Below, piece after piece: positions 25,843 to 54,544 of a stretch of 64,000 bases of DNA. Position 1 is the first letter of the stretch; the number at the start of each line of letters is the position of its first letter. Source of the stretch: Roseivivax sediminis (GTDB lineage: Bacteria; Pseudomonadota; Alphaproteobacteria; Rhodobacterales; Rhodobacteraceae); NCBI RefSeq assembly GCF_900112685.1, contig NZ_FOMS01000004.1:77025-141024 (forward strand), in the 5' to 3' direction. The notes under the pieces are model-generated. The model ran no database searches, was not told the DNA's origin, and was given only the letters and a program-made list of their open reading frames with translations. The translations under genes were made by a program, and so were the position numbers.

Positions 25843-26298
25843 ATGCGCAAGTTCATGGTCGTGCTCGACGACAGCCGCGAATGCCTCAACGCGATGCGCT
25901 TTGCCGCCATGCGCGCGGCCAGGACCGGCGGCGGCGTGTCGATCCTGTCGGTGATCCCGCCGGACGAGTTCAATCACTGGATCGGTGTCGGCGACATCAT
26001 GCGCGAAGAGGCGCGCGAACGCATCACCGCGCATTTCGAGGTCTTCGCCAAGTGGATGCGCGACCGTCAGAACGTCGACCCCGAACTGGTGATCCGGGAG
26101 GGCGACCCGGTCACGCAGATCGTCGCGCAGGTCGGTGACGACCCCGAGATCGGGGTGCTGGTGCTCGGTGCGGGCACCGACAAGTCGGGTCCCGGCCCGC
26201 TGGTCACACAGCTTACGCGGAGTGCCGGCTCCCTGCCGATCCCGATCACCATCGTGCCGGGCGACCTGTCGAAAGAGCGGCTGGAAGCCATCACCTGA
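25843..26298 (+). CDS. Universal stress protein, UspA family
   Basis: A 151-residue single-domain Usp. It opens MRKFMVVLDDSRECLNAMRFA and has the nucleotide-binding glycine run near the C-terminus (VLGAGTDKSGPGPLV). The pattern GxxGxG is partly degenerate, leaving ATP binding uncertain. It is probably involved in stress survival, the general role of the family. SD GGGGAGG lies just upstream. Confidence 0.88.
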   Translation: MRKFMVVLDDSRECLNAMRFAAMRAARTGGGVSILSVIPPDEFNHWIGVGDIMREEARERITAHFEVFAKWMRDRQNVDPELVIREGDPVTQIVAQVGDDPEIGVLVLGAGTDKSGPGPLVTQLTRSAGSLPIPITIVPGDLSKERLEAIT

Positions 26299-26426
26299 CG
26301 CTCTGCCCGCCAGATCGCACGGGTCACGGCTCCATCCGGGTCACTCCGCATGTCGGCGCCAGCTTGGCCGAGCGCGTCAGGGACAGCCGTCGCAGCCTCA
26401 GAACTGCCCGAAGCCTGCCGGCAGAC

Positions 26427-26443
26427 TTTAGAACCGTTCCAAA
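26427..26443. promoter_or_regulatory. Palindromic candidate operator upstream of nfuA
   Basis: TTTaGAAC-C-GTTCcAAA, a 17-base palindrome with one mismatched pair, sits five bases upstream of the -35 of the nfuA promoter. Its shape resembles the Iron-Rhodo box proposed for IscR-type regulators in Rhodobacterales (from memory). The downstream gene builds Fe-S clusters, which makes iron control plausible. Confidence 0.55.
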
Positions 26444-26447
26444 CACC

Positions 26448-26476
26448 TTGACCCTGTGCCGGCCCGTGAGCATATT
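26448..26476 (+). promoter_or_regulatory. sigma70-type promoter of nfuA-tsaB-rimI
   Basis: -35 TTGACC (26448-26453), 17-base spacer, -10 CATATT (26471-26476). It predicts a short leader of about 20 bases to the nfuA ATG at 26504. Confidence 0.65.
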
Positions 26477-26503
26477 TGCAGGTAACCGAGAAAGGGCCGC
26501 CAC

Positions 26504-27073
26504 ATGTTCATCCAGACCGAATCGACGCCCAACCCCGCGACGTTGAAATTCCTGCCCGGGCAGACCGTGCTCGACGCCGGCACTGCCGATTTCCCCTCGC
26601 CCGAGGGCGCCGGCGCCTCGCCGCTGGCCACCCGCCTGTTCGACGTGCCCGGCGTGCGCGGCGTGTTCTTCGGCAACGACTTCGTCACCGTGACGAAGGC
26701 CGACGACACCGACTGGGACCACGTCAAGCCGGCGATCCTCGGCGCGATCATGGAGCATTTCCAGTCCGGCCAGCCGGTCATGGCCGATGGCGCCATGGAC
26801 ACGTCCGGCGGCGGTCACGCCGACCATGACGGCGAGGACGGCGAGATCGTCGGCCAGATCAAGGAGCTGCTCGACACCCGCGTGCGCCCGGCGGTGGCGC
26901 AGGACGGCGGCGACATCACTTTCCACGGGTTCGAGCGGGGCGTCGTCTACCTGCACATGCAGGGCGCCTGTGCCGGCTGCCCGTCCTCGACGCTGACGCT
27001 CAAGATGGGCATCGAGAATCTCCTGCGTCACTACATCCCCGAGGTGACCGAGGTGCGCCCGATCGGTGTCTGA
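26504..27073 (+). CDS. nfuA: Fe-S cluster carrier NfuA-type
   Basis: A 189-residue protein with an N-terminal Nfu-specific domain (MFIQTESTPNPATLKFLPG) and a C-terminal NifU-like domain with CAGC (Cys156, Cys159), which binds a bridging [4Fe-4S] cluster and passes it to apo-proteins. Both domains and the length fit alphaproteobacterial NfuA. It is first in an operon: tsaB starts eight bases inside its end, then rimI. The strong promoter with an adjacent palindrome suggests iron- or Fe-S-dependent control, itself an inference. Confidence 0.93.
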   Translation: MFIQTESTPNPATLKFLPGQTVLDAGTADFPSPEGAGASPLATRLFDVPGVRGVFFGNDFVTVTKADDTDWDHVKPAILGAIMEHFQSGQPVMADGAMDTSGGGHADHDGEDGEIVGQIKELLDTRVRPAVAQDGGDITFHGFERGVVYLHMQGACAGCPSSTLTLKMGIENLLRHYIPEVTEVRPIGV

Positions 27074-27629
27074 TCCTCTGATCCTCGGCTTCGACACATC
27101 GGCCGCGCATTGCGCGGCCGCTTTGCTGTCGGGCGACCGCATCCTCGCCGCGCGCGGCGAGGAGATGGCGCGCGGGCAGGCCGAACGCCTCATGCCGCTT
27201 CTCGAAGAAGTGCTCGACGAGGGCGGCGCCACATGGGCCGACCTTGCACGGATCGGTGTCGGCGTCGGGCCGGGTAACTTCACCGGAATCCGCATATCGG
27301 TGGCCACCGCGCGCGGCCTCGCCTTCGCGCTGGAGATCCCCGCGATCGGCGTCTCGACGCTTGACGCGACGGACGGCCCCTGCCCCGTCGTGCCCGCCCC
27401 GCGCGACATGGCCTATGCGAGAACGCCCGGCAGGGCGGTGGAGCTCCTCCCCCGCGTGGACCTGCCGGCCGAGGTCACCTGGCCGCCGGCGCCGGAGGCG
27501 CTCGCCGCCGCCATCGCCCGCCGCGCCCAGGGCGCCGTCCCAGGCGCGCCGCCGGCACCGCTCTATGTCCGGCCCGCCGACGCCGCTCCGGCGCGAGACG
27601 CCCCGCCCCGAATTCTCGATGAAGCCTGA
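27066..27629 (+). CDS. tsaB: tRNA threonylcarbamoyladenosine biosynthesis protein TsaB
   Basis: A 187-residue ASKHA-fold partner of TsaD in the t6A37 tRNA modification complex. It shows LGFDTSAAHCAAALL at the start and VGVGPGNFTGIRISVATARGLA, both typical. Start is GTG at 27066, eight bases inside nfuA. The C-terminus is shorter than in E. coli, as in many alphaproteobacteria. rimI overlaps by 11 bases, the usual tsaB-rimI pairing. Confidence 0.93.
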   Translation: MSDPLILGFDTSAAHCAAALLSGDRILAARGEEMARGQAERLMPLLEEVLDEGGATWADLARIGVGVGPGNFTGIRISVATARGLAFALEIPAIGVSTLDATDGPCPVVPAPRDMAYARTPGRAVELLPRVDLPAEVTWPPAPEALAAAIARRAQGAVPGAPPAPLYVRPADAAPARDAPPRILDEA

Positions 27630-28056
27630 GGACATGGCCGCGCTGATGGCGCGCGCATACCGCCACCAGGCTCCCTGGGGCGCCGCCGACATCGCCGCGC
27701 TGAGCGCCCGTCCGGTGACGAGACTGATTGGCGCGCCCGAAGGCTTCCTGATCGCGCAAGTGGTCGCAGACGAGGCGGAGATCCTCGCGCTCGCGACCGA
27801 TCCGGCCGCACAACGCCAGGGCGTGGCCTCCGACCTGCTCACCCAGTTCCACACCCTATGCGCCTCCGAAGGCGTGACCCGCGCCGTCCTCGACGTCGCA
27901 CACGACAACGATCCGGCCCTGGCGCTCTACACCCGCTTCGGCTACGCCGAGACCGCGCGGCGCGCCGGCTACTATCGCCGGCCGGACGGCAGCCGCGCCG
28001 ATGCGCTGCTCATGGCGCGCGCGATCCGCCCCGATAACGCCGCGTCGCCCGCCTAG
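27619..28056 (+). CDS. rimI: GNAT acetyltransferase, RimI-type
   Basis: A 145-residue N-acetyltransferase with the GNAT acetyl-CoA loop AQRQGVASDLL and the C-terminal NDPALALYTRFGYAETARRAGYY of RimI-like enzymes, which acetylate the N-terminus of ribosomal protein S18 in E. coli. The ATG at 27619 lies 11 bases inside tsaB. It could act on other proteins; family placement and operon position support RimI. Confidence 0.87.
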   Translation: MKPEDMAALMARAYRHQAPWGAADIAALSARPVTRLIGAPEGFLIAQVVADEAEILALATDPAAQRQGVASDLLTQFHTLCASEGVTRAVLDVAHDNDPALALYTRFGYAETARRAGYYRRPDGSRADALLMARAIRPDNAASPA

Positions 28057-28082
28057 CCGCCCGCGAACACGGGAAAAACCGG

Positions 28083-28112
28083 TTGACCCCCTCGGGCCGG
28101 TCGGTCCTAAAT
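28083..28112 (+). promoter_or_regulatory. sigma70-type promoter of the BMP transporter operon
   Basis: TTGACC (28083-28088), an 18-base spacer and CTAAAT (28107-28112). A leader of about 70 bases with a small GGGG...CCCC hairpin leads to the binding-protein ATG at 28191. I see no known riboswitch consensus in it. Confidence 0.5.
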
Positions 28113-28190
28113 CGTGGCGAGATCGCTTCGATCCAAAGGGACGCAGGGGACGAACCCCCGCCCCGCACCACGTTTCAGGGAGCCCCGCGC

Positions 28191-29195
28191 ATGACCGTTC
28201 TGAAATCCCTCCTTGGCGCCTCCGCCGCGCTGGCGCTGTCCACAGGCGCCGCGCTCGCCGATCCGGCGCTGATCTACGATCTCGGCGGCAAGTTCGACAA
28301 ATCGTTCAACGAGGCCGCGTTCAACGGCGCCGAGCAATGGGCCGAGGAAACCGGCGGCAATTACCGCGACATCGAACTGCAATCCGAGGCGCAGCGCGAA
28401 CAGGCCCTGCGCCGCTTCGCCGAAGCCGGCTTCAACCCCGTCATCACCACCGGCTTCTCCATGTCGACGCCGATCGACAACGTCGCGGGCGACTATCCAG
28501 ACACCAAGTTCGTGACCATCGACGGCTATGTCGACCCCGAGGAACACCCGAACGTGAAGTCGATCTCCTTCGCGGAGGAGCAGGGCTCCTACCTCGTGGG
28601 AATGCTGGCTGCGATGGCGTCCGAGACCGGCACAGTATCCTTCGTCGGCGGCATGGACATCCCGCTGATCCGCGCCTTCGCCTGCGGCTATGCCCAGGGC
28701 GCCAAGGCGGTGAACGAGGACATCGAGGTCATCGCCAACATGACCGGCACGACGCCCGCGGCCTGGAACGACCCGGTGAAGGGGTCCGAGCTGACCAACG
28801 CGCAGATCTCCCAGGGCTCCGACGTGGTCTTCGCCGCCGCCGGCGGCACCGGCATCGGCGTTCTGCAGACCGCCGCGGACGAGGACATCCTGTCCATCGG
28901 CGTCGACAGCAACCAGAACCACCTGCATCCCGGCCAGGTCCTGACCTCCATGCTCAAGCGCGTGGACGTCGCCACCTACGAGGCGATGCAGGCGGGCGAA
29001 GACCTCGACACCGGGACCGAGCGGCTGACGCTCGAGGATGACGGCGTCGGCTACGCGCTCGACGAGAACAACCGCGATCTCATCACCGACGAGATGCAGG
29101 AACGCGTCGACGAGGCGCGCCAGGCGATCATCGACGGCGAGGTCGAGGTGCACGACTACCGCTCCGACGACAGCTGCCCGGCCCTGTCGTTCTGA
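28191..29195 (+). CDS. BMP family (Med/PnrA-type) nucleoside-binding lipoprotein-like protein of an ABC importer
   Basis: A 334-residue periplasmic binding protein. The signal peptide ends GAALAD; no lipobox Cys is present, so it should be soluble. The BMP family motif FDKSFNEAAFNGAEQW follows at once, with FAEEQGSYLVGMLAA and GVDSNQNHL later. Homologues such as PnrA and RfuA bind purine nucleosides or riboflavin. The three transporter genes downstream complete the system. The start ATG at 28191 follows CAGGGAG. The substrate is most likely a purine nucleoside, by family only. Confidence 0.9.
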   Translation: MTVLKSLLGASAALALSTGAALADPALIYDLGGKFDKSFNEAAFNGAEQWAEETGGNYRDIELQSEAQREQALRRFAEAGFNPVITTGFSMSTPIDNVAGDYPDTKFVTIDGYVDPEEHPNVKSISFAEEQGSYLVGMLAAMASETGTVSFVGGMDIPLIRAFACGYAQGAKAVNEDIEVIANMTGTTPAAWNDPVKGSELTNAQISQGSDVVFAAAGGTGIGVLQTAADEDILSIGVDSNQNHLHPGQVLTSMLKRVDVATYEAMQAGEDLDTGTERLTLEDDGVGYALDENNRDLITDEMQERVDEARQAIIDGEVEVHDYRSDDSCPALSF

Positions 29196-54265: not shown

Positions 54266-54322
54266 CGCCCATCCTCCTCTTGGCGGCGGAGGGGGCAAGG
54301 GATGCGGGCAGCCCGGCCAAAC

Positions 54323-54420
54323 CTTCCCTCCGCCGGTCTCAACCGGGCCAGGTTCAACGGGTTCGCAGGCAGGCCCGCTTCTCAGCCCGGCACGGCCACG
54401 CGCGCCAAGGCACCCCGAGG
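54323..54420 (-). promoter_or_regulatory. TPP riboswitch (THI element) of thiBPQ
   Basis: Reading leftward from 54420 I see the TPP aptamer landmarks in order: GGGGTGCC, GGCTGAGA, ACCC-G-TTGAACCTGG and the closing GGCGGAGGGAAGG. Downstream, CCCTCCGCC (54293 to 54285) is an exact complement of the aptamer's 3' arm GGCGGAGGG (54334 to 54326), and its CCTCC can also pair with the thiB SD GGAGG (54277 to 54273). This suggests a switch acting on translation start. Confidence 0.95.
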
Positions 54421-54544
54421 TGTGCAAGCGAGGTAGCCGAGGGACCGGCCTCCGGCAAGGGGGCATACTGCCGTCGGGGGTTGCCTTCGGGACTGTTAGC
54501 TCCACGATTTGCCGGATAGCCGACTGGGCGGAACGAGGTCAGAG

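Follow-up and report, generated by a model that had tools for sequence, protein, structure and literature searches.

A predicted Irr operator at the promoter of the Fe-S carrier gene nfuA in Roseivivax sediminis and other Rhodobacteraceae

Irr, its operator (the ICE) and its targets mbfA, ccpA and isc-suf are already known. Irr binds the ICE without heme, leaves it once heme is bound, and represses or activates depending on the position of the ICE (PMC7762939). In Rhodobacter sphaeroides, binding of Irr was demonstrated by EMSA for the mbfA promoter (PMC3413700) and for the site TTAGAAATATTCTAGA at isc P3, a promoter located inside iscS (PMC6956336). At promoter P2 of iscR, an IscR box spans -36 to -19 and an Irr box -13 to +1 (PMC6956336); R. 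sphaeroides Irr did not bind this predicted Irr box in vitro (PMC3413700, PMC6956336), and, when iron was sufficient, lack of Irr reduced the activity of P1 and P2 2- to 3-fold (PMC6956336). In the absence of Irr, modestly higher expression or a stronger response to iron was seen for ccpA, whose start follows the box by about 40 nt, and for isc P3, where the distance is about 50 nt (PMC3413700, PMC6956336). The two predicted R. sphaeroides Irr targets named in PMC3413700 are mbfA and ccpA, not nfuA, and PMC6956336 cites the predictions of Rodionov et al. 2006.

The name nfuA is used loosely here, for a gene whose product has Nfu_N and NifU domains and scores well short of the threshold for the E. 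coli-type NfuA equivalog TIGR03341 (41.3 bits, cut-off 269.35). In Pseudomonas aeruginosa, the regulator of nfuA is said to be IscR. That system likewise concerns an Fe-S carrier gene (PMC6084964), yet one under a [2Fe-2S] sensor, whereas the sensor proposed here is one of heme or iron; set beside it, the protein described here is also distinguished by its low score against the E. coli-type model. The Iron-Rhodo box of the IscR regulon is alike in being an iron-responsive operator of the same bacterial family, but it differs in sequence, overlaps the -35 hexamer at iscR and belongs to an Rrf2-family regulator (PMC4618611).

Here, we analyzed a stretch of 64,000 nucleotides from Roseivivax sediminis, referred to as the window. 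A sequence-only reading had proposed a near-perfect palindrome beside the strong promoter of an Fe-S gene, and the 17-mer, the TTGACC-N17-CATATT promoter and the Nfu-type gene were all recovered (Table 1). Palindrome and promoter are real and beyond chance. The pattern of that reading, TTTNGAACNGTTCNAAA, matches once in the 64-kb window with up to two mismatches (0.01 expected), TTTAGAANNNTTCTAAA with up to three mismatches has a single match in the window (0.02 expected), and mismatch-free TTTNGAANNNTTCNAAA has two matches across the 4.62-Mb genome, upstream of nfuA and upstream of iscR. Within 26290-28250, no sigma-70-like match other than the nfuA promoter was found, and shuffled sequences gave a mean of 0.1.

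Table 1. Coordinates of the predicted operator, the promoter and the gene run in the window
Feature	Position	Strand	Remarks
Predicted Irr box (ICE) TTTAGAACCGTTCCAAA	26427..26443	+	13/14 defined positions of TTTAGAANNNTTCTAAA matched
-35 hexamer TTGACC	26448..26453	+	CACC (4 bp) between box and hexamer
-10 hexamer CATATT	26471..26476	+	N17 spacer from -35
nfuA	26504..27073	+	ATG at 26504; Nfu-type Fe-S carrier; Nfu_N and NifU domains
tsaB (t6A tRNA modification)	27066..27629	+	overlaps nfuA
rimI-like acetyltransferase	27619..28056	+	overlaps tsaB; 80 bits, slightly below the rimI cut-off of 86.4

The genes nfuA, tsaB and rimI were read correctly as one run. Each gene's start overlaps the preceding gene's end, so that tsaB and rimI should follow the control of nfuA. 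Within the first codons of tsaB, a terminator-like hairpin on the plus strand (27100-27120) comprises nine G-C pairs followed by CTTTGCTGTC; it may be fortuitous or may reduce tsaB-rimI transcription. A TPP riboswitch on the minus strand at 54308-54427 (55.7 bits, gathering score 54.3) is the only Rfam match at the gathering threshold in the window.

The ICE consensus is the palindrome TTTAGAA-N3-TTCTAAA. Across the 4.62-Mb genome, TTTAGAANNNTTCTAAA with up to two mismatches has four sites, namely at the iscR-suf promoter, at nfuA, 34 bp upstream of dps, which is a ferritin-like (Dps-type) gene (PF00210), and inside iscS, a gene of the suf operon that was read by eye as encoding a cysteine desulfurase (L001). 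The reversed pattern gave three matches against these four, and the weakest of the four, the one inside iscS, is therefore unconvincing on its own; it agrees, however, in place and type with the Irr site at isc P3 of R. sphaeroides (PMC6956336). Elsewhere in this genome an Irr (L003) is encoded that passes both NCBIfam Irr models (NF045678, 203.6 bits, cut-off 150; NF045677, 201 bits, cut-off 170) and has an H-D-H stretch; its gene adjoins fabA and fabB, as named by eye. Irr is one of three Fur-family proteins, together with Mur/Fur and Zur, and no further member over the cut-off was found in the genome. An IscR is encoded as well; its 140-aa slice scores 142.8 bits against TIGR02010, below the cut-off of 207.55, and passes the Rrf2 superfamily model.

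The palindrome is kept upstream of nfuA in relatives, so that the sequence-only reading withstands the refutation by absence there that it had itself set. We examined 80 nfuA loci, chosen for the best NfuA match among 571 confirmed relatives, a sample that therefore leans to close ones. At -90 to -60 from the start codon, a box with at least 11 of 14 defined positions was present in 74 loci, with at least 12 in 71 and with at least 13 in 56, and elsewhere in the 658,846 bases only four places reached 11 of 14 and none 12 or more. By the loosest count 76 of the 80 loci have the box, which is displaced in one of them (L074, 10/14); L039 has a 10/14 box in place, L035 has the box with no -35 hexamer in place, and L067, L076, L077 and L080 have no box of at least 10/14 near nfuA. 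The geometry is narrow. Box and TTGA[CT] occur together in 75 of 81 sequences, the window included, and all 75 have 17 bp between the -35 and -10 hexamers; the distance from box end to TTGA[CT] is 2 bp in 63 of them, 3 bp in seven and 4 bp in five, the window among the last. Positions 2-7 (TTAGAA), 12-13 (TC) and 15 (A) of the box are invariant around a variable centre. With the -10 hexamer set as -12 to -7 relative to the predicted start, the centre lies at -46 to -48, and the box spans about -56 to -40 in the window; with the 2-bp spacer that most relatives have, it spans about -54 to -38. The mbfA and ccpA ICEs of R. sphaeroides resemble this site in regulator family and site type, and the ccpA start, about 40 nt downstream, comes near the nfuA geometry, whereas the mbfA start lies inside the box (PMC3413700). 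The isc-suf region of R. sediminis repeats the R. sphaeroides pair of iscR boxes, in which an IscR element covers the -35 and an Irr box the -10, together with the box inside iscS; unlike R. sphaeroides iscR P2, nfuA has an Irr box alone, upstream of the -35 hexamer (PMC6956336).

Thirty further loci were chosen as those, among 243 genomes, that best matched a single Pseudotabrizicola protein. Twenty-four of these are counted as carrying the box, two are near misses (L089 with 13/14 at -86, L099 with 10/14), and four are without a box. The nfuA loci without a box retain TTGA-N17-CATAT. A lineage on the Pseudotabrizicola side (L080, L086, L087, L095 and L109) has neither an Irr box nor an IscR-like box at nfuA and keeps TTGAC-N17-CATAT. 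Loss of the box through loss of Irr was considered and rejected: Irr was found in all 50 genomes tested of the 80, including the four without a box at nfuA, so box loss does not track loss of the regulator. The genes nfuA, tsaB and rimI lie close together in 63 of the 80 loci, and three of the other 17 are on contigs that end too early (L036, L065 and L082). Among the loci whose gap between nfuA and tsaB was translated, seven (L042, L051, L062, L071, L084, L035 and L037) have a gene there for a GFA-like (glutathione-dependent formaldehyde-activating) protein, assigned by Pfam on the L042 protein only. This gene possibly belongs to the same operon as nfuA in some roseobacters.

Searching 61 genomes of the family Rhodobacteraceae for the strict 15-mer TTAGAAYNRTTCYAA recovered 87 distinct sites in 47 of them. 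Forward matches numbered 69 against 9 for the reversed pattern, and reverse-strand matches 66 against 11. By neighbor, 82 of the 87 sites fall to nfuA (35), iscR or its divergent neighbor, a hydrolase gene (23), mbfA (19), dps (4) and katG (1), which makes nfuA the commonest strict Irr-box gene in the family sample. Positions of nfuA were listed in 35 of the 61 genomes, and the other nfuA cases were reached from the side of the site. One MbfA was checked against the curated model, and this protein shares 71-83% identity with the other 18; KatG (L186), catalase (L250) and MsrA (L229) were named by eye, without a family search. The five strict sites without a target of the named kinds are L182, L200, L212, L223 and L226. 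By eye, the box at L226 lies between a gene for a lipoyl synthase-like Fe-S enzyme and a peroxiredoxin-like gene, and those at L212 and L223 lie near genes for a ZIP-like metal transporter and a molybdenum sulfite/sulfane dehydrogenase-like protein.

The same arrangement of box and -35 hexamer recurs in the class. The layout TTAGAAYNRTTCYAA-N2..6-TTGA was found in 33 of 240 Alphaproteobacteria genomes, and the reversed pattern in the same layout in none of the 240. In the three of these 33 genomes that belong to the family, all sites are at NfuA. Among the 30 outside the family, 21 sites lie at most 360 bp from irr, 16 of these 21 beside a gene read by eye as rubrerythrin; across the 27 outside loci read, a rubrerythrin gene adjoins the site in at least 16 (by eye, with Pfam on part of one), and NfuA adjoins it in none. 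Among loci L228-L257, many from alphaproteobacteria outside Rhodobacterales run from irr through the ICE/-35 promoter to a gene read by eye as rubrerythrin. The layout of the nfuA promoter is one that other alphaproteobacteria use beside irr, mostly for rubrerythrin. Clear Irr proteins occur in 29 of the 30 outside genomes with the layout, the exception with no Irr match being G499, and in 25 of 30 chosen without it, proportions so alike that presence of Irr says little about presence of the layout.

The co-targets mbfA, iscR and dps and the adjacency to irr in other alphaproteobacteria are the grounds on which we assign the motif to Irr. Given the observed box, its geometry and conservation, the co-targets and the presence of Irr in the genome, the palindrome is very probably an Irr operator whose vacation would change transcription of nfuA-tsaB-rimI; binding of Irr, its effect and the sign of that effect are what we infer for nfuA itself. 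A good match to the ICE is not always bound, because R. sphaeroides Irr failed to bind the box at iscR P2 in vitro. We found no report of an Irr box at nfuA in searches of open-licence literature; the one paper retrieved for NfuA together with Irr mentions NfuA a single time, among its references. The comparative study of Rodionov et al. 2006 (PLoS Comput Biol 2:e163), which reportedly defined these boxes in Rhodobacteraceae, may well list the site.

The sequence-only reading had taken the palindrome for the Iron-Rhodo box, so that IscR would bind it and place nfuA under Fe-S status. This could seem natural for an Fe-S gene in a family in which all 31 genomes searched encode IscR, and some nfuA promoters in the genus of locus L067 do carry IscR-like boxes. 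In the family iscR promoters, however, the IscR-type element overlaps the -35 hexamer (consensus of 23, ATTCTTGACGGAATCGCTCGGGCAC), and where such a promoter also has an ICE, the ICE covers the -10 and the different element the -35. A weight matrix built from the 23 iscR promoters, with the TTGAC columns omitted, gave means of +10.5 for true iscR promoters (leave-one-out), -18.2 for random window sequence and -17.7 for the 80 nfuA promoters, although it is not sharp: true promoters are scattered between -20 and +22, with a 10th percentile that 18 of the 80 nfuA promoters also attain. On this unsharp matrix the nfuA promoter of the window scores -29.9 (random 99th percentile, 0.05), and the highest score among the 103 box-bearing nfuA promoters is -5.6, which sets them apart from the iscR-promoter elements. 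The palindrome also occurs at mbfA and beside irr. Identification with the Iron-Rhodo box was accordingly rejected, and binding by IscR in the window is very improbable; what stands of the earlier proposal is an iron-type operator at the promoter of an Fe-S gene, with Irr as the probable regulator in place of IscR. Another Fur-family protein has only slightly better prospects and is still improbable. Mur/Fur and Zur are both encoded beside Irr, and a PerR-like protein could be imagined from the peroxide genes, such as rubrerythrin and KatG, that the layout precedes in other orders. Yet the genome holds no further family member over the cut-off, it is irr that the sites adjoin (21 of 30), and the common targets include targets of Irr proven by EMSA. 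We give equally little credence as to IscR to the idea that the AT-rich palindrome is a mere UP-like promoter element with no regulator bound: its position is one where the alpha C-terminal domains contact DNA, but palindromic symmetry is kept around a variable centre, and the same word is found over the iscR -10 and next to start codons of mbfA.

If Irr is the regulator, heme-free Irr would bind the predicted box directly upstream of a near-consensus -35 hexamer. There, the protein would contact the promoter region that RNA polymerase engages through sigma region 4 and the alpha C-terminal domains. Heme or iron sufficiency, or inactivation of Irr by peroxide, would vacate the box and change transcription of nfuA-tsaB-rimI; the peroxide input draws on established knowledge of Irr mutants. 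We slightly favor mild repression, relieved by iron/heme or peroxide, and give it about an even chance. The promoter seems to need no activator, because loci without the box keep TTGA-N17-CATAT, and the play of 2-4 bp between box and hexamer would suit occlusion better than a rigid contact. Activation of nfuA-tsaB-rimI at low iron, from a position upstream of the -35, is the weaker candidate but a serious one. The box leaves the core promoter free and is tightly held at 2-4 bp from the -35, the same genomes use a second position with the box on the -10 of iscR promoters, and activation by Irr is described as common and dependent on ICE position (PMC7762939). Against this stand the near-consensus -35 retained in loci without a box and the mild negative effects of Irr at R. 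sphaeroides sites of similar distance (PMC3413700, PMC6956336). Activation would gain from the IscR-like replacement of the box in one genus, which would give more nfuA at low Fe-S: if the replacement keeps the same logic, activation by Irr at low iron would be the better fit. The remaining probability goes to no effect, or another effect, of Irr.

This replacement is the newest part of the findings. Among the 80 nfuA promoters, only L067 (Thioclava marina) and L076 (a related metagenome genome) exceeded the random 99th percentile of the IscR matrix, and we therefore took the 16 genomes of the Thioclava marina genus (L258-L273). Three of them have an Irr box at nfuA, matching 13 or 14 of 14 positions, with IscR scores of -20.6 to -27.4. 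In the remaining 13, the Irr box is missing and the -35 hexamer is covered by an IscR-like element, with scores of 0.6 to 11.4 and conserved halves flanking a variable centre; by the matrix, this element is of the Iron-Rhodo type (PMC4618611). Altogether, 123 distinct nfuA promoters (127 minus one without a -35 hexamer and three duplicates) comprise 103 with the ICE only, 13 with the IscR-like element only, seven with neither and none with both. All 13 IscR-like promoters come from the one genus, and the tree is compatible with one exchange event or with several; IscR is predicted to bind these 13 sites from the matrix score. It is intriguing to propose that the Nfu carrier gene has been handed from one iron sensor to another through a change of operator while the rest of the promoter was retained, a proposal that in our view stands an even chance of being right.

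With the regulator corrected from IscR to Irr, the genes behind t6A formation on tRNA and acetylation by RimI are predicted to vary with the iron/heme status of marine Rhodobacterales. Provided that both operators are functional, Irr as a heme/iron sensor and IscR as an Fe-S sensor would be interchangeable inputs at nfuA, and the t6A and RimI genes would follow. For the question of whether Irr can stand in for IscR and vice versa, the exchange within one genus amounts to a natural experiment.
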